A stretch of 7,352 bases of DNA from NCBI GenBank assembly GCA_025774615.1, contig JALGVQ010000151.1, positions 1 to 7,352 of the forward strand. The letters run 5' to 3'. Positions 281-7,352 of this stretch are shown here, piece by piece. The stretch comes from a bacterium. GTDB taxonomy: Bacteria > Blakebacterota > Blakebacteria > Blakebacterales > Blakebacteraceae. How positions within the stretch are numbered: the first letter of the stretch is position 1; each line of letters opens with the position of its first letter. The position numbers were made by a program, and so were the translations under genes. The notes below the pieces were generated by a model. The model was given only the letters and a program-made list of their open reading frames with translations. It was not told where the DNA came from and did no database searches.

Positions 281-373
281 TCAGCTGATGGGGAAGCGGG
301 CCGTCATGGTCGTCCCTTCACCCGGCTTACTGTCGACCGACAGGGTTCCACCATAGGCATCCACGATCGAGCG
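281..373 (-). pseudogene. out-of-frame 3' end of the histidine kinase (end of HATPase domain)
   Basis: Read on the minus strand from 373, this frame encodes RSIVDAYGGTLSVDS, then KPGEGTTMTARFPIS, and stops with TGA at 283-281. This is the expected end of a HisKA/HATPase_c kinase: the helix after the G2 box (xxRSIVDAYGG), the beta hairpin carrying S-x-P-G-x-G-T, and a final F-P-I/L strand. It continues the kinase reading at 327-4544 but is offset by one frame. Typical kinases have two residues between GLGLA and the Arg (GLGLAxxRxIV). Here only one base (374) separates the Ala codon from the Arg codon, so the simplest lesion is loss of 5 nt. It has no start codon or ribosome binding site of its own and is not an independent gene. 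Confidence 0.85.
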
Positions 374-3300
374 TCGCCAGGCCGAGCCCTGTTCCTTCGG
401 TCTTGGTTGAGAAGTAGGGTTCGAAGAGCCGTTCCTGCACCTCGGGGGCGATCCCTTCACCGGTATCCTGCACCTGGAGCCAGACGTATTCCTCATCGTG
501 ACCGGTCCGGACCGTGAGGGTCCCCTCCTCTCCCATCGCGTCGAGAGCGTTCCGGATCAGGTTGATGATGAGCCGCCGGATCTGCTCGGTATCGAGCATG
601 ACGACGGGAAGATCGGCGGCGAGTTCCCGGATCATGGTCATCTCTACCGGAAGCGCCGGCTCGAAGAGGTTCAGCGCGTCCTCCACGGGCGCGTTCAGAT
701 CGGTCGGTTCCCTCTTCACGACCGGCAGGCGGGCGTAGGCGGCGAATTCATTTGCTATCCTGCGGAGTCCCTCCACCTGCTCAACGATGGTGTCGGTGCA
801 CTCCGCCACGATCGAGTCGAGATCGTCGGCTTTTTCTTCATACGCCCGCCTGAGGAACTGCGCAGAGAGCTGCATCGGCGTGAGGGGGTTCTTGATCTCG
901 TGGGCAACCTGACGGGCCATCTCCTGCCAGGCCCGTTCCCGCTCCGCGCGGGCCAGTTCTTCCCGATTCTCCCTCAGCGCGATAACCATCTGCCTGAAGG
1001 CCTTCTGGAGGCCACCGACCTCATCCCCCCGGGTCACCGGGATCTCCACGCCGAGATCCCCGCCAGCCACGCGCACGGCCGACCTGGTGAGATCCCCGAT
1101 CGGCTGCGAAATACGGCTCGCTACCAGCAGTGCTACCAGCGTCACCGCCACCACCAGCAGCAGATAGATGCTGGCTACCGTCGTGAAGAGCTGATTGAGC
1201 GCCGGGTCGTTCAGACCCCACAGACCGAACCTCCGCCTGGCGATCGTGCCCACTGCGGTGCCGGTATGATCGGTCAGCGGCCGGTAGGCGTAGAGGTAGT
1301 GAAGCCCGCTGAGTTCCCCCCAGCGGAAGGCACCGACCTCACGGCCCCGTAGTCCCTGCCAGTCGGCTTCCCTCGGCAGGAGTGTCGGCAACAGCCCGGC
1401 CGCGTACGGTCCCGGCCCGGTCGAGGATTGCAGACGGCCATCGATCAGGAGATCGACCTGCCACTGAGATCCGCGTGCCGCCTCCCTGAGCAGATGCTCC
1501 GTGAATGGTCTCACGACGATCGCCGCGCCTTCGGAATAGCGTTCACCCACCGGAGCGATGGCCACCGCCCACAGACCGTCAGATCTGAACAGGAATGAGC
1601 CAGGACCTCGGGCATGGACAGCGTCGCGCAGGGGGATGCGCTGGGCAAGGGAGTCTGGAACGGTCCCGGCCAGACGGAAATAGTTCTCATCGAAGATCGC
1701 CCAGAGGGCCTCCGGGCCGAGATCCACGGCACCCGTCCTCCACTCCGTCATCTGCTCCAGGATCCTCACCAGCTCTTCAGCCTGGTCGCCGGTCTGCTCG
1801 AGTACCCCCTGCTGTACATCTCTCACACTCTGTTCAAGGCCCGCCTCCCATGAAGACCGCTCCCTGTTCAGGATGAACCCCCTCGTGAGCAGCCAGAGGG
1901 CCACCAGAGGCACCAGCGCCACCACCAGCAGAGGGATCAGAAGTCTTGTCTTGAACGAGACCCGCCGAAGCATCCGTCCTACGGGTATGCCGGTCCCGGC
2001 GACCACCGCCGCCGGCAACCACCCCAGCAACAGCAACGCCGCGGTGAATAATATCACCACATTCAGCACATCCACGATCCTGCCCCACAACCCGGGGAGC
2101 CGGACACCGAGACAGGCGACCCGCTCCACCACATTCTCCTCAACCAATACACCACCCGGCATCAACGGACCGGCCGATGCGGTCGCCAGATGGAAGAAAT
2201 ATTCATCAGAGCCGGTGCCGATCCGGCCTCCCCTGCGGAGCCAGACACCCCGCGTGCCTCCCTCCCTGATCCGCTGGACGACCGAGCGTGGTACCTGCTC
2301 GGGCGCTTCAACAAGCGTCGGGTTCAACGGCAGGGCCAGCAGTCCATAGGTCTCATCGTAGAGACGGAGGAACAGATCTCCCCCCAGCCTTCCCTCGCGT
2401 TCGGCATGCCCAGCCCGGTCGAAGCGTGTCCATATCCTGTTCTCACCACCGGCCATGACACCGAGAAGCCTCCTGCGCACACCGAGCAGGAGTGAACTCG
2501 CCCCCTCCCCTCCCGGAACGCCTATCAGGAGCGTCTCCACACCGAACTCTCCCGGTGACCCGGCCGTCAGAACCAGGCGCCCCTCTCCACGAGCAAGCAT
2601 ACTCCTCACCTTCTCGATCACCGGGACATCGAAGAGATCGGATACGGTCTCGAAATGGCCCGTGACCTCTCCTGTCTCATCCACTACCTGGACACCTCCG
2701 GCCAGCATCTCCTCATGCAGATCGAGCTGTCTCCAGACCAGGTATGCCCGGCGGTCATCCATGTTCGTGAACGGGTGCAGACCGGCAGGCTGCCTGTTGT
2801 CATCTGCAGCGACGGCGGCTCTGAGTTCATCAGTGATCCCGGCAACTTCCATCGATGTCAGTCCGACACCGGTTCCGGCCATGCTCGCCGCTGAATCTTC
2901 AACCACGTTGCGGATGATGACTCTGCCCAGCTGTCCCTTGATGGGCAGCAGCACCATAGCCCCGATCATTCCCAAACCAAGAAGCGCGGTCAGGGGGGTG
3001 GCTTTCCCGCTCCCCTTCAGCCAGAGAGAGGCGCCGATCGTACCCACAGCCGCCGCGCACATTCCGGTCAGAAGTGATCCGTCCCAGGCGCCTGAAACGC
3101 CCGCCAGGAAACCACCAACCAGCGCTGCGGTGACAGCCGCAGCGAACCCTTTCCACTGATATCGGGAGCGCAGGATCGCGGCCGATCCTCCAGAGACACT
3201 GGTCAGGATCATGATCATTGCGATCGCGATGAGCCATCCAACGAGATCGGACAGAGGCGGCAGGAAGCTGACGTTGGCCCAGAACCAGCCGGGCGCGAAT

Positions 3301-4544
3301 CGGAAGAGGTCCTGCAGAAGCGCCAGACCGATCGGCCAGAGTACCAGGATGAGGAGTCCCGAACCCACTCCCGAAGCGGTTGTAAAACGGTTTCTCTCCC
3401 CATCCTTCAGTCCCGCTCGGATACCGAGCGCGAACCAGAGCGCGAGTCCTGCCCCCGCCACGGCCAGGAATGCCTGATTGATGAGCTGGTGTCCCGTCCA
3501 CGAAGGAGCTATCAGGTCGAGTGTCAACGGTCGGCCGGCCACCCCGAGTACCAGCGGCACGACCGAGGCATATATCACCGGAGCCGCAGACAACCCCCTC
3601 ATCACCGAGCTGTCCTTGCTGAGCAGGAGCAGGCTGAGCAGGAGGATCGAGAAGAGCAGGGTTACCTGGATCACCCCCCTGCCCGGATGGGGGAACGTCT
3701 CTTCGGTCCATGGCCCCGGCTCGATCGTGACCATCCACGCCCGACCCTCATCGGGCACTATCCGCAGCCGCGACGCGATATGCCCGGGGAGCATCTTCTC
3801 GAGGATCGGTTCTGTGCCTGGCGCCAGATCGGTATGGACCCTGTTGCGTGCCAGGAGACCGGCCACCACAAGCGTGCCCTCGGGCAGGGCCGCGATCGAG
3901 TACGCTGCCGCCGAAAGGCTGTCCCCTGCGGTGAAGAACCACTGCGACCCCGCTCCGATCGAACCTCCCCATTCATTGTTCTCCAGGACATGCGCGGGCA
4001 CCATGTAGGGGGAACCGGCCCATGCGATCTGCACCCCTTCATCCCTGAAGAGAGCGATCGCTACCCCCTCTTCGATCATGGATGGCAGGTCGGGAAGAAC
4101 ACTCTCCAGTCTCTCGCGCGTCCCCAGGCCGCGAGACGGGTCTGCAAGCGCTTCCGTAGCGGATCCAAGCGCGTCCTCCAGATATCCCCGAACAGTCTGA
4201 AGCGTCTCTGCGACCCGTGCCCGATCTCCACTCTCCCGATCGGCAAGCAGTCGTTCTGATGGTCTCAGAGGCAGGAGAATGTTCCCGACAGCACAGAGGA
4301 TCGCCAGCGACAGGAACGCCCATTTCCATTGCCCGAGAGGATCCGCCGCCGCTGATCTGCCGGCCGAACGCACCGCCAGCCAGGCCGGTACGAGCGCGAG
4401 GAATCCCCACAGCTTCCATCCCCCCAGACCGAGATACAGGGCCAGGAGCACAGTCGCGGCAACAAGCCAGCTCATACGGAATGTCGTGGAACGGAGCCGG
4501 GCGATGCCGCCCGGTCGCGCCGGTGATGTCAGCGAGGCTCTCAT
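327..4544 (-). CDS. giant multi-sensor NtrY-like histidine kinase, frameshifted near its C-terminus
   Basis: Membrane sensor kinase that would autophosphorylate a His and pass the phosphate to a response regulator. As read it has 1405 residues, far more than the 700-800 of typical NtrY. Hydrophobicity suggests 14 membrane helices: about 24-42, 43-59, 73-92, 290-308, 317-337, 353-376, 391-412, 428-450, 466-485, 488-509, 516-535, 822-850, 866-890 and 1119-1143. They leave three extracytoplasmic regions (about 93-289, 540-815, 891-1115). The short loops predicted inside are Arg/Lys-rich, which supports this topology. Next come HAMP (1144-1196), HisKA with phospho-acceptor His1215 in AHEIKNPLTPMQLSA (an NtrY-style motif), and HATPase_c: N box NLIRNALDAM (about 1328-1337), G1 box DTGEG (1360-1364), FEPYFST (1374-1380), GTGLGLA (1385-1390 region). 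No PAS is evident between HAMP and HisKA. After Ala1390 the frame is lost; 15 aberrant residues precede the stop at 327-329. The true C-terminus is in another frame (281-373). ATG 4544 is the first start; ATG 4475 (Met24, just before the first helix) is the alternative. Neither has a clear Shine-Dalgarno. The signal sensed and the partner are unknown. Confidence 0.9.
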   Translation of the reverse strand: MRASLTSPARPGGIARLRSTTFRMSWLVAATVLLALYLGLGGWKLWGFLALVPAWLAVRSAGRSAAADPLGQWKWAFLSLAILCAVGNILLPLRPSERLLADRESGDRARVAETLQTVRGYLEDALGSATEALADPSRGLGTRERLESVLPDLPSMIEEGVAIALFRDEGVQIAWAGSPYMVPAHVLENNEWGGSIGAGSQWFFTAGDSLSAAAYSIAALPEGTLVVAGLLARNRVHTDLAPGTEPILEKMLPGHIASRLRIVPDEGRAWMVTIEPGPWTEETFPHPGRGVIQVTLLFSILLLSLLLLSKDSSVMRGLSAAPVIYASVVPLVLGVAGRPLTLDLIAPSWTGHQLINQAFLAVAGAGLALWFALGIRAGLKDGERNRFTTASGVGSGLLILVLWPIGLALLQDLFRFAPGWFWANVSFLPPLSDLVGWLIAIAMIMILTSVSGGSAAILRSRYQWKGFAAAVTAALVGGFLAGVSGAWDGSLLTGMCAAAVGTIGASLWLKGSGKATPLTALLGLGMIGAMVLLPIKGQLGRVIIRNVVEDSAASMAGTGVGLTSMEVAGITDELRAAVAADDNRQPAGLHPFTNMDDRRAYLVWRQLDLHEEMLAGGVQVVDETGEVTGHFETVSDLFDVPVIEKVRSMLARGEGRLVLTAGSPGEFGVETLLIGVPGGEGASSLLLGVRRRLLGVMAGGENRIWTRFDRAGHAEREGRLGGDLFLRLYDETYGLLALPLNPTLVEAPEQVPRSVVQRIREGGTRGVWLRRGGRIGTGSDEYFFHLATASAGPLMPGGVLVEENVVERVACLGVRLPGLWGRIVDVLNVVILFTAALLLLGWLPAAVVAGTGIPVGRMLRRVSFKTRLLIPLLVVALVPLVALWLLTRGFILNRERSSWEAGLEQSVRDVQQGVLEQTGDQAEELVRILEQMTEWRTGAVDLGPEALWAIFDENYFRLAGTVPDSLAQRIPLRDAVHARGPGSFLFRSDGLWAVAIAPVGERYSEGAAIVVRPFTEHLLREAARGSQWQVDLLIDGRLQSSTGPGPYAAGLLPTLLPREADWQGLRGREVGAFRWGELSGLHYLYAYRPLTDHTGTAVGTIARRRFGLWGLNDPALNQLFTTVASIYLLLVVAVTLVALLVASRISQPIGDLTRSAVRVAGGDLGVEIPVTRGDEVGGLQKAFRQMVIALRENREELARAERERAWQEMARQVAHEIKNPLTPMQLSAQFLRRAYEEKADDLDSIVAECTDTIVEQVEGLRRIANEFAAYARLPVVKREPTDLNAPVEDALNLFEPALPVEMTMIRELAADLPVVMLDTEQIRRLIINLIRNALDAMGEEGTLTVRTGHDEEYVWLQVQDTGEGIAPEVQERLFEPYFSTKTEGTGLGLATLDRGCLWWNPVGRQ

Positions 4545-4612: not shown

Positions 4613-4652
4613 AAAAAAAACATGGCCCGACCCGCGTGCTGCGGGCCGGGCC
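4613..4652 (-). terminator. intrinsic terminator after the outer-membrane protein gene
   Basis: Reading the minus strand, a 12-bp stem (arms 4652-4641 and 4635-4624) with a 5-nt loop (4640-4636) is followed after 3 nt by eight T residues (4620-4613). The pair at 4646/4630 is a G-U wobble in minus-strand RNA but an A-C mismatch in plus-strand RNA, and the long T run is on the minus-strand side, so the terminator works for leftward transcription. It begins 25 nt past the barrel gene's stop and should separate that unit from the kinase gene. Confidence 0.9.
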
Positions 4653-4677: not shown

Positions 4678-5973
4678 TCAGAACCGATAGCCGAACGACA
4701 TTATGAACTGGCCGTGACTCCAGACCTCCGAGGTCGCGCCCAGTCCGGTCTCCCACTGCGCGGTGCGATAGGTCAGGTCGAGATGGATCAGGTCACCCAT
4801 CGGCAGGCCTATCCCTGCGCTGTATATCTCACGATTTCTGACGATCTCCTCACCAACAGCCCGGAATACGAGCGGTGACCACTGATAACCGGCGCGGACT
4901 GCCAATCCGCCGGGAACAGCGAGTTCCATGCCGCCGCCCAGTTTCCACTGTGGTTCGTAGTTGTTGACGAAGAAATCAGGGTCGAACCCGTCGTACGGGG
5001 ACTTCGAGTACCAGGCCTGCGAATAGTCGGTGAAAGAGGCACTGCCGCTCATGGTGACTCCCGCGATCGAGAGCGCCGCCCCCATATCGAACTCAAAGGG
5101 GATCCGCAGGGCGTAGGAGTAGAGCCCATCGTCGTCGTAGGTCACTTCCGAGGTCTCGTCGTCGTAGTAGAGTATCTCCGACTGGTACCACTCCTCGGTG
5201 ATCTCGATATCTGTCGGCATGCGGATCGTTCCACCGAACGAGAGCCCCTGTACCGGCATCCAGAGCGTACCGACCGACATGCGGAGACCTTTACTCTGAT
5301 ATGAGTAGTCGATCCCGTCATCCCACCGATGACCATCGTAGGGAGTCCAGACATCATCGGTATCGTACGCGTCCAGCAGGTAGGTGTAGCTGTTGGAGCC
5401 ACTGATCGCCTCGAGGCTGAACCCGATGTAGGTACTCTTCGAAACCTCTACCGCTACTCCCGCCGCGTATCCATAGAGCGATCCGCGATCGGAGTCATTG
5501 GCCTCTATCCAGGTCTCCCCCAGATCGGGATCATCGGAGGTGTTGTACCCTTCGAGCCGGTACCGGTTGTCCAGATCCCTGAGCCGATGGGCACCGATCG
5601 CGAAGACGAGGCTGCCCCGGTCTGTGGGTATGGAATAGACCAGGCCCAGGTTGTCCAGACCGGTGCTGAATACCTTCGAATTCGATTCTGTGCCGAAATA
5701 GCTCGTGTTGAGAACGGTCGAACGGTGGGAGATACCCCCTTCGATACTCAGCCCCTTCACCAGCCCGAGTCCTGCCGGGTTATAGTAGAGGCTGTGGATG
5801 TCCCCCCCGATCGCGTGGTATGCCTCACCCATGGCCAGAGGTCGCGCGCCGGTCCCTGTGGGAACGACTGCAAGGATCTCCGCGCTCTGGGCGAATGTCG
5901 CGACCGGTGAAAGGAGCAGAAGCACTGCTCCCCCTGCGACCGCGTTCCGGATCCTCATTCCCATGCTGTTCAT
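4678..5973 (-). CDS. OmpP1/FadL- or PorV/PorQ-like outer-membrane beta-barrel protein
   Basis: Predicted exported outer-membrane beta-barrel of 431 residues from ATG 5973. The N-terminus is a clear signal peptide: a basic stretch (MRIRN), a hydrophobic core (AVAGGAVLLLLSPVA) and likely cleavage after TFA or AQS-A. The mature start has GARPLAMGEAYHAIGGD and SLYYNPAGLGL, the family hallmark (GARxxAMGxA...D...YNPAGL) of the OmpP1/FadL and PorV/PorQ superfamily. Alternating-residue strands follow, including a late block (WKLGGGMELAVPGGLAVRAGY) typical of these barrels, and the chain ends in Tyr-Arg-Phe, the terminal aromatic used for barrel assembly. Two stretches, about residues 201-225 and 280-298, are rich in Asp/Tyr and are probably loops. 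FadL relatives move hydrophobic compounds; PorV relatives serve type IX secretion; the sequence does not decide between these. A longer reading from GTG 5997 overlaps the upstream stop by 4 nt but has no Shine-Dalgarno and adds charged residues before the signal peptide. The gene follows the repeat-protein gene by 20 nt and ends at a terminator. Confidence 0.85.
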   Translation of the reverse strand: MNSMGMRIRNAVAGGAVLLLLSPVATFAQSAEILAVVPTGTGARPLAMGEAYHAIGGDIHSLYYNPAGLGLVKGLSIEGGISHRSTVLNTSYFGTESNSKVFSTGLDNLGLVYSIPTDRGSLVFAIGAHRLRDLDNRYRLEGYNTSDDPDLGETWIEANDSDRGSLYGYAAGVAVEVSKSTYIGFSLEAISGSNSYTYLLDAYDTDDVWTPYDGHRWDDGIDYSYQSKGLRMSVGTLWMPVQGLSFGGTIRMPTDIEITEEWYQSEILYYDDETSEVTYDDDGLYSYALRIPFEFDMGAALSIAGVTMSGSASFTDYSQAWYSKSPYDGFDPDFFVNNYEPQWKLGGGMELAVPGGLAVRAGYQWSPLVFRAVGEEIVRNREIYSAGIGLPMGDLIHLDLTYRTAQWETGLGATSEVWSHGQFIMSFGYRF

Positions 5974-5976
5974 GAT

Positions 5977-5989
5977 CTTCCTGTCCTTT
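5977..5989 (-). promoter_or_regulatory. ribosome binding site deciding the barrel-protein start
   Basis: Minus-strand AAAGGACAGGAAG lies just before ATG 5973; the AGGA core at 5982-5979 leaves 5 nt to the start. The alternative upstream GTG (5997) has no comparable purine-rich site. This favours ATG 5973, which also places the signal peptide close to the N-terminus. Confidence 0.7.
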
Positions 5990-5993
5990 CCTC

Positions 5994-7349
5994 TCACATT
6001 CCCGGAGGTGGACGTGATGTCGTCGTCCTGGCCCGTGAACTCGATGTGGTCGGTGGACGCGACGTTGTGGTGCGCGAACTCGTACTTCTCGGCGGTGGAC
6101 GTGACGTCGTTGTGCGCGAACTCGTACTTCTCGGCGGTGGACGTGACGTCGTGGTCCGTGAACTCGTACTTCTCGGCGGTGGACGTGACGTCGTGGTCCG
6201 TGAACTCGTACTTCTCGGTGGCGGACGTGACGTCGTGGTCCGTGAACTCGTACTTCTCGGCGGTGGACGCGACGTCGTGGTCCGGGTGCGCGAGCTCCTG
6301 GTCGGTGGACGCGACGTTGAGGTCCGGGTGCGCGAGCTCGTGGTCGGCGGACGTGATGTCGTGGTCCGGGTGCGCGAGTTCGTGGTCGGTGGACGTGATG
6401 TCGTGGTCCGGGTGCGCGTACTGGTGCTGCTCGAGCCGGTCCGGGTGCTCTCGGTCTTGTTGCGCGAGCTGGTCCTGGCCGTCGATGAGCTCGACCCGAC
6501 GCTCCGGCCGGTGTACCGCCGGATCAGTTCGTTCCCGACCGCCCTTGCCGTTTCACGGAGCCGGCTGGTGCCGCTTCTGGCCGGTGGTGTACTCCTGATC
6601 TTCGAGTCCCCGACCGTCGGCCTCTCGGTACGGGTCGTGGTACGATCCGTATTCCCGGTTGTCGTCCGCGCGTCACCGACATCTGTTCTGGTCCTGGTAT
6701 CGGTGCCCGCACGGGTCCGGGAATCACGCCGTGTGTTATCTTCAGTTCCGTCGGCAACCGTGACTGCGGCCCTGTCGGCCGCCGTTCCGATCGGTCTGCG
6801 CGCGTCACGCAGATCGGTGACTCCCCGTCGCCGATCGGCTGGACGCCGCGCGTAATCCTCGACAATCACCACACCCCGGGATCTCCCCCCGTACCACGGG
6901 TCATCGTAGTAGTGGTAGGGACCCCAGTAGGGATCGTAGTAGCCGTAGTGGTAGGGACGGTGCCAGTCCCATGGATTCCAGTACGCGAAGTAGGGCTGGT
7001 AGTGGTAGAAGGGATCGCTCCAGTAGTAATCCCAGTAGAACGGATCGTACCAGTAGGATTCGTAACGACCCCAGGAGACACCGAAACCGCCCCAGCGCCA
7101 TCCGACACTCCAGACCGAACCGTACCGGCCGTACCGGTGTGGCCAGCGGTTCCATCCGTAGCAGTTGCCGTAGTACCAGTCGACAGAGAGTCTACGTATC
7201 CACGGCCGGCGATATCCGGCGACATAGACACCGGGCTGGCTGACCCATCCATACCCGTCGTAGTACTGATCCCCATACCCGGCATCGCTGTAATAGTCAT
7301 CACCGTAGTATTCGTAATCGCTTCGGTACCTGACTCCGACCGCGTCCAC
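5994..7349 (-). CDS. Tyr/Trp-rich protein with Arg/Thr/Ser/Pro tandem-repeat tail, 5' partial
   Basis: Function unknown; no enzyme motif is visible. At least 451 residues are encoded. The GTG at 7349 sits at the window edge, the frame stays open through the edge and no signal peptide is seen, so the true start is probably upstream. Three regions differ sharply. Residues 1-155 are dominated by Tyr, Trp, Gly and Asp: between 96 and 155, 30 of 60 residues are Tyr, Trp or Phe, with recurring D-P-F/Y-Y/W motifs (DPFYW, DPFYHY, DPYWGPY). Residues 156-285 are charged (RRPADRRRG, then many Arg-Thr-Asp), with one possible short helix at about 260-282. Residues 286-451 are almost only Arg, Thr, Ser and Pro, organised from about 308 as ten 14-residue repeats around TTTSRPP. 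This tail is likely disordered and strongly basic. Aromatic, low-complexity proteins of this kind occur in envelopes of Bacteroidetes and related phyla, mostly uncharacterised. The close downstream barrel gene suggests an envelope role (inference). A secreted or surface adhesive or scaffold protein is one possibility, not shown. Confidence 0.75.
   Translation of the reverse strand: MDAVGVRYRSDYEYYGDDYYSDAGYGDQYYDGYGWVSQPGVYVAGYRRPWIRRLSVDWYYGNCYGWNRWPHRYGRYGSVWSVGWRWGGFGVSWGRYESYWYDPFYWDYYWSDPFYHYQPYFAYWNPWDWHRPYHYGYYDPYWGPYHYYDDPWYGGRSRGVVIVEDYARRPADRRRGVTDLRDARRPIGTAADRAAVTVADGTEDNTRRDSRTRAGTDTRTRTDVGDARTTTGNTDRTTTRTERPTVGDSKIRSTPPARSGTSRLRETARAVGNELIRRYTGRSVGSSSSTARTSSRNKTESTRTGSSSTSTRTRTTTSRPPTTNSRTRTTTSRPPTTSSRTRTSTSRPPTRSSRTRTTTSRPPPRSTSSRTTTSRPPPRSTSSRTTTSRPPPRSTSSRTTTSRPPPRSTSSRTTTSRPPPRSTSSRTTTSRPPTTSSSRARTTTSRPPPGM
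6007..6429 (-). repeat. 42-bp tandem repeat array, ten units, inside the partial CDS
   Basis: Units begin (plus-strand GGTGGACG or GGCGGACG) at 6007, 6052, 6094, 6136, 6178, 6220, 6262, 6304, 6346 and 6388. The step is 42 bp throughout except the first, which is 45 bp (in-frame insertion). Each unit encodes 14 residues with the core TSRPP. There are two subtypes: the units from 6262 upward encode an R-T-R-T-T-T-S-R-P-P-T-x-S form, and those between about 6052 and 6261 encode S-R-T-T-T-S-R-P-P-P-R-S-T-S. The units at 6136, 6178 and 6220 differ from one another at only about two bases, pointing to recent duplication or conversion. Length changes in whole units keep the frame. Confidence 0.95.
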
Positions 7350-7352
7350 CCC

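Follow-up and report, generated by a model that had tools for sequence, protein, structure and literature searches.

A 14-helix histidine kinase with three predicted extracytoplasmic sensors and its relatives in several phylum-level groups of bacteria

Is a histidine kinase whose input half appears to carry three separate sensors an inherited design, or a product of fusion, misassembly or decay, and how could three sensors serve one kinase core? Textbook sensor kinases have one extracytoplasmic sensor. The question is raised by a gene on contig JALGVQ010000151.1 of a bacterium assigned to Blakebacterota. The window analyzed in this study, which is 7,352 nucleotides long, is the entire contig and belongs to a metagenome-assembled genome with a completeness of 82%. 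We consider it probable that the gene encodes a single-polypeptide, NtrY/AtoS-like membrane histidine kinase with 14 transmembrane (TM) helices and three Cache-type sensors, which integrates several periplasmic or envelope inputs and represents an old, usually single-copy family. The gene belongs to a large and apparently undescribed family, and its product is a protein of a known kind.

Kinase core, membrane topology and sensor folds

The open reading frame (ORF) of the kinase is on the reverse strand at 327..4544, as are all of its parts given below. Read from the ATG at 4544, it encodes 1405 amino acid residues, the last of which are frameshifted, while the orthologues in three genomes range from 1422 to 1425 residues. 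Its C-terminal part contains a HAMP domain (residues 1140–1192, 969..1127; PF00672, E-value 1.3e-12), a HisKA domain (residues 1206–1273, 726..929; PF00512, E-value 8.1e-10) with the H-box ARQVAHEIKNPLTP and the phospho-acceptor His1215 (codon 900-902), and a HATPase_c domain (residues 1318–1394, 363..593; PF02518, E-value 8.8e-17) that is shortened by the frameshift. No Pfam matches other than these three were found in the ORF. The HisKA domain with its phospho-acceptor histidine and the HATPase_c domain together identify the ORF as a two-component sensor histidine kinase. Moreover, the H-box was invariant across the 31-sequence family alignment. Because of the frameshift, the HATPase_c match of the window covers profile positions 2–82 of 111; it is complete in the orthologue G001.

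Hydropathy and a purpose-written positive-inside hidden Markov model (HMM) gave 14 TM helices grouped 3-8-2-1. The protein thus consists of three TM helices, a loop of 196 residues, eight TM helices, a loop of 287 residues, two TM helices, a loop of 236 residues and one TM helix, followed by HAMP, HisKA and HATPase. A preliminary description of this DNA, made from the sequence without database searches, had proposed the same order of helices with three extracytoplasmic sensors of about 195, 275 and 225 residues and a HAMP-HisKA-HATPase C-terminus. The calls made here and the three Pfam matches agree with it, and the layout was also found in about 85 homologues and in the structural model of one of them, L066.

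TM1–TM3 span residues 24–93 (4266..4475) and are three helices in the homologue model as well. The second of them (about residues 45–59) is short and weak, because of which the automatic calls varied between 13 and 14 helices with the settings. Sensor 1 (residues 94–289, 3678..4265) holds the family motif A-W-x-G at residues 174–177 and is followed by an eight-helix membrane bundle, TM4–TM11 (residues 290–535, 2940..3677), which was supported by both the topology calls and the homologue model. Sensor 2 (residues 536–822, 2079..2939), with a double-Cache-like order of helices and strands, precedes the TM12–TM13 hairpin (residues 823–886, 1887..2078), whose cytoplasmic loop is rich in arginine and lysine and in which F864 is conserved. 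Finally, the dCache-like sensor 3 (residues 887–1122, 1179..1886) leads to TM14 (residues 1123–1141, 1122..1178), which continues into HAMP according to the topology calls and the homologue model.

The preliminary description had also placed the short Arg/Lys-rich loops on the inner side of the membrane. Their distribution was assessed with a TM predictor that is blind to charge, the orientation being set by the cytoplasmic HAMP domain. In the window protein, lysine and arginine accounted for 19 of the 70 residues in short inner loops vs. 5 of the 61 in outer ones (Fisher p = 0.006). Enrichment in the same direction was found in three orthologues (p 0.005–0.05), and lysine and arginine were denser inside in 21/21 homologues called with 14 helices. 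Therefore, all three large loops are predicted to be extracytoplasmic, and no large domain was placed inside the cell.

An AlphaFold model of L066, which was built on 78 aligned rows including the window protein, had a mean predicted local distance difference test (pLDDT) score of 86.0, a predicted template modelling score of 0.85 and 14 TM helices. Its elements are arranged as three TM helices, a PAS-like domain, eight TM helices, a two-module alpha/beta domain, two TM helices, a second two-module domain and one TM helix. Structure comparison with VIA-align showed that sensor 1 of the model (residues 107–266) has a Cache fold, with matches to WalK/YycG 5is1 (Z 11.1, rmsd 3.5 over 115 residues), KinD (Z 10.7) and DctB (Z 9.6). 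Sensor 3 of the model is a double Cache, matching LuxQ 2hje (Z 10.0, rmsd 5.7 over 185 residues) as well as PctA and RsbU. Foldseek alone returned no match for the model at an E-value of 0.001 or better; its top rows were likewise Cache receptors. In addition, the dCache_3 profile matched sensor 3 in 4 of the 31 homologues (best 4e-7), and no dCache profile match was found for sensor 3 of the window protein itself.

In sensor 2 of the model, a long helix (residues 531–572) is continuous with the preceding TM helix and is followed by two strand-rich modules. A long helix that extends the TM helix before it in this way is a hallmark of Cache domains (PMC4822843). By its order of helices and strands, sensor 2 looks like a double Cache. 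When compared with the PDB by sequence, the sensor profiles gave chance-level matches only. For the eight-helix bundle, no curated Pfam family scored above its cut-off in the homologues, and no PDB chain was found by sequence. Most of the input half of the family seems to lie outside any curated family model.

Distribution and ancestry of the family

A full-length, single-copy orthologue was present in all four genomes of the window's phylum, that of the window included. The three orthologues were 75, 58, and 57% identical to the window protein over its whole length. Public records of the close relatives of the window (L042–L044) are labelled unclassified bacterium, Zixiibacteriota and Latescibacterota; they were grouped with the window in one phylum in this study.

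Outside this phylum, searches with single sequences matched kinase cores only. A profile of the sensor part matched a kinase of 1,631 residues in the genome G239 (E-value 1.7e-10), which was 25% identical across 911 aligned columns (hhalign probability 94.7). When the orthologue profile was set against a single sequence from G027, no clear homology was evident outside the kinase, and only a many-member profile linked the two. A seed-peptide scan of genome contigs found only the three known orthologues, because the seed peptides were specific to the phylum. For five other phyla, sequences from within each phylum were used as queries, and the link of the members identified there to the window protein is made by profile A2, the common layout and the tree. 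Relatives of the sensor half were found in all 7 genomes of the phylum of G239, 51 of the 80 of G027's, the single genome of G060's, 7 of the 8 of G137's and 67 of the 199 of that of G085/G438. The members outside the window's phylum were mostly one per genome.

The layout was shared by about 85 kinase ORFs, which came from at least six phylum-level groups. Its modal form was 3-[195–260]-8-[245–305]-2-[about 150 or 240]-1-HAMP-(PAS)-HisKA-HATPase, as given by automatic helix calls, individual ones of which drop or add helices. W175 of sensor 1 was present in 95% of 85 sequences. The columns kept from the window protein to the remote members included A174-W175-x-G177 in sensor 1, A600, W604 and F631 in sensor 2, F864 in the cytoplasmic hairpin and G1050 in sensor 3. 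We define the family here by the order 3-[S1]-8-[S2]-2-[S3]-1-HAMP-HisKA-HATPase together with the AWxG motif of sensor 1, and the window protein has both. Profile comparisons among sensors 1, 2, and 3 did not reveal convincing internal duplication, the best probability being 6.6%.

Given that the members were chosen by their sensor halves, their kinase cores serve as an independent test of ancestry. In a quick tree of kinase cores, the 91 family cores were on one side of a branch with a Shimodaira–Hasegawa-like approximate likelihood ratio test (SH-aLRT) value of 95, and the 25 closest other kinases, which came from the same search of genomes, were on the other. Thus, the input and output halves were most likely inherited together. 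A literature search found no description of a 14-helix, three-sensor architecture, and the family is widespread, usually single-copy and apparently undescribed.

Gene neighbourhoods

Upstream of the kinase, a gene for a PorV/PorQ-like outer-membrane protein was identified (4678..5997, reverse strand; NCBIfam PorV_fam, E-value 6.3e-10, below the curated cut-off), and it occupies the same place in all three relatives. A strong hairpin resembling an intrinsic terminator, with 12 pairs and then a T-run, is between the two genes (4624..4652, reverse strand). As far as their contigs extend, the three relatives have the order PorV-like gene, kinase, a large codirectional TPR protein of the YbgF/BamD kind, a beta-barrel, ExbB, ExbD and a TonB-type gene. 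In L050 (6737–13502), L049 and L051, the genes downstream of the kinase, starting with that of the giant TPR protein, all run in one direction.

In 53 of the 83 distinct family loci with enough upstream sequence, the kinase gene is immediately preceded on its own strand by a gene for a small, exported DUF4783-like protein. Only two other DUF4783-like hits were found among the loci, and both also overlap the 5' end of the kinase frame. In the three proteins tested, the matches to DUF4783 were just under the Pfam cut-off. The DUF4783-like protein (L114, L118, L160–L212, and others) is secreted and has an invariant Gln and an invariant Trp. No paper mentioning DUF4783 was found in a literature search. 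In G060, genes for a Tyr-rich protein, a PorV-like protein, a Tyr-rich lipoprotein-like protein and a DUF4783-like protein precede the kinase in this order, and this locus joins both kinds of context, the PorV-like and the DUF4783-like. SecD/SecF genes upstream of the kinase and DUF4159 and DUF4175 genes downstream were also recurrent (L047, L118, L120, L199–L211). An NtrC-type regulator gene directly follows the kinase gene in one homologue, L117, and the window's own genome encodes 16 full-length sigma-54 activators.

Comparison with known kinases, proposed signaling and alternatives

Similar to NtrY of the NtrYX systems, including PlrS of Bordetella, the kinase has an NtrY-type H-box (HEIKNPLTPxQLS), a HAMP domain and a periplasmic PAS-like (PDC/Cache) domain. 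Moreover, the small exported protein gene upstream of most homologues resembles plrP, which is upstream of plrS (PMC13001219). Different from NtrY, which has few helices and one sensor, the family possesses 14 TM helices and three sensors, a contrast that the preliminary description had drawn correctly. The neighbor is DUF4783-like in this family, whereas the partner in NtrYX is DUF4390. In addition, no NtrX gene is adjacent to the kinase in the window's phylum; a regulator of this type adjoins the kinase in one homologue, L117. Finally, the kinases of the window and of G001 lack a PAS domain between HAMP and HisKA, with about 71 residues from TM14 to the histidine. A PAS domain at this position had a Pfam match in G239 and a weak one in G027, and the TM-to-His spacing suggests its presence in most other homologues.

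The best NCBIfam matches of the kinase core were the LIC_11548 family and AtoS (E-values 1.4e-57 and 6.7e-45). Their scores, 195.8 of 750 and 153.6 of 646 bits, were far under the curated cut-offs, and the models, 589 and 616 positions long, match the C-terminal part alone. Cache-domain kinases, such as LuxQ, DctB, KinD, and WalK, share the Cache fold that the homologue model shows in sensors 1 and 3. In those kinases, a single such region is flanked by two TM helices; here, however, three of them are inserted along a 14-helix protein. Rich in TM helices and possibly able to sense within the membrane, the family also resembles the intramembrane-sensing DesK and the Amt- and SLC5-type transporter-kinase fusions. 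Different from those kinases, its series of helices is broken by large extracytoplasmic domains, and no match to a transporter family was found in 31 homologues.

In the kinase of this study, the double Cache of sensor 3, located between TM13 and TM14, would couple directly to the kinase core via TM14 and HAMP, the route of ordinary Cache kinases. No helix leads directly from sensor 1 or sensor 2 to the kinase, and these two must therefore act via the bundle, the TM12–TM13 hairpin, contacts with sensor 3 or periplasmic partners. Carried by the eight-helix bundle, they would most likely tune the same output through movement of the bundle or contact with sensor 3 or periplasmic partners, and a single phosphorylation decision might in this way sum several envelope states, in line with the integration of several signals that the preliminary description had suggested. 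For most homologues, the exported DUF4783-like protein of the adjacent upstream gene would probably be the first partner; outer-membrane or TonB-type envelope parts may take this place in the window's phylum. The output probably goes to a sigma-54 activator of the NtrC/NtrX type. In Bordetella, genetic evidence shows that PlrP, the periplasmic product of a gene immediately preceding that of an NtrY-type kinase, limits the phosphatase activity of that kinase, probably through its PDC (Cache-type) domain (PMC13001219), and NtrYX controls the cell envelope (PMC7240162). Only tentatively can the proposal be widened to an ancient and undescribed class of envelope-surveillance kinases, in which three Cache sensors, a 14-helix body and a co-inherited DUF4783-like periplasmic regulator, single-copy across phylum-level groups, might link outer-membrane assembly, secretion or TonB-type machines to sigma-54-dependent transcription.

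Several observations weigh against a multi-input envelope kinase. The AlphaFold model of the window protein, built on four sequences, had a pLDDT of only 33.6, and L066 is only about 17% identical to the window protein, so that its features are transferred via the alignment. Sensor 2 had no convincing sequence match and none among the structure matches listed. The preliminary description had suggested a comparison of each sensor with Cache/PAS profiles; Cache kinship was found in homologues for sensor 1 (by structure) and sensor 3 (by profile and structure). No response regulator gene was found beside the kinase in the window or in the relatives' loci, and the terminator-like hairpin parts the kinase from the PorV-like gene, which are therefore probably separate transcription units in the window. 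Moreover, the DUF4783-like gene is absent upstream of the window kinase and was not detected in the four genomes of the phylum (63–85% complete). Therefore, the partner model does not carry over there.

Could the gene be an artifact or a relic instead? Its unusual length alone would speak for an assembly chimaera or a fusion of unrelated genes, the latter being one of two outcomes that the preliminary description had named as overturning its proposal. We regard this as hardly credible and rejected it: the full-length ORF recurs in three independent assemblies of the same phylum and also in many genomes outside it, where a single gene encodes the whole protein and the kinase core is co-inherited. 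Moreover, about 85 ORFs conserve the layout, and the kinase cores are of single origin and on one branch. A decaying copy, in which a damaged ATP-binding lobe leaves the three-sensor protein silent in this genome, is improbable rather than incredible. In its favor, 5 bp are missing between 373 and 374 (reverse strand) relative to three orthologues, which read on as GLGLAITRAIVDA where the window leaves the frame, near residue 1391 in the last part of the HATPase domain. However, the codons past the deletion are conserved and open in another frame as far as the normal stop, and the remaining ORF is intact across 1,390 codons. The deletion is most simply read as an error of consensus or assembly in the metagenome-assembled genome.

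Other alternatives concern what the input half does. Transporter-kinase fusions are known, CbrA being an example, and the eight-helix bundle might itself be a transporter or an ion- or lipid-binding module whose transport or occupancy is the main signal. The preliminary description had likewise raised a transporter-like or ligand-binding bundle. It is a compact and confidently predicted unit in the homologue model, and its extracytoplasmic loops TM5–TM6 and TM7–TM8 are strongly conserved, with DPxYFATP/ADxLLT and NANARLIG in one clade and PSWTGxQLxNQAF and DLxRFAPxWFWAxVSFLP in the window's phylum. Against this, no Pfam transporter family was found in the 31 homologues and no PDB chain by sequence, the structure comparison not extending to the bundle, and we judge such a role improbable too. 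Somewhat less so, although still unlikely, is a division of labor in which sensor 3 alone senses, and sensors 1 and 2 serve as scaffolds that anchor the kinase to an envelope machine of PorV-like, TPR/YbgF-like and ExbB-ExbD-TonB proteins. The flanking of the kinase by PorV-like and codirectional TPR genes in all three relatives, with the beta-barrel, ExbB, ExbD and TonB-type genes beyond, is consistent with this, as is the fact that sensor 3 alone is coaxial with HAMP. Sensors 1 and 2 and motifs such as AWxG, however, are also kept in phylum-level groups with other neighbors (SecDF, DUF4159, DUF4175), and such conservation fits a recognition role as well as a scaffold.

The unusual features of the family are its three-sensor, 14-helix input and its conserved DUF4783-like neighbor. 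A single-copy, widely kept kinase with three sensors built into a polytopic membrane body would, if the inputs are integrated, lend itself naturally to the study of how multiple periplasmic signals merge ahead of one HAMP domain. Through the conserved neighbor, a domain of unknown function also gains a specific, named partner that can be tested. Periplasmic third components have so far been reported for proteobacterial NtrYX systems, and this neighbor suggests that they may be more general among NtrY-like kinases.

Beyond the PorV-like gene, a gene for a Trp/Tyr-rich protein without a Pfam match is at 5994–7352 and is cut by the contig edge. Its repetitive tail, composed of Ser, Thr, Arg and Pro, derives from a 42-bp tandem repeat of 8.6 copies (6051–6410). 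Tyr-rich proteins are likewise encoded beside a PorV-like gene and the kinase in the remote homologue locus L114.

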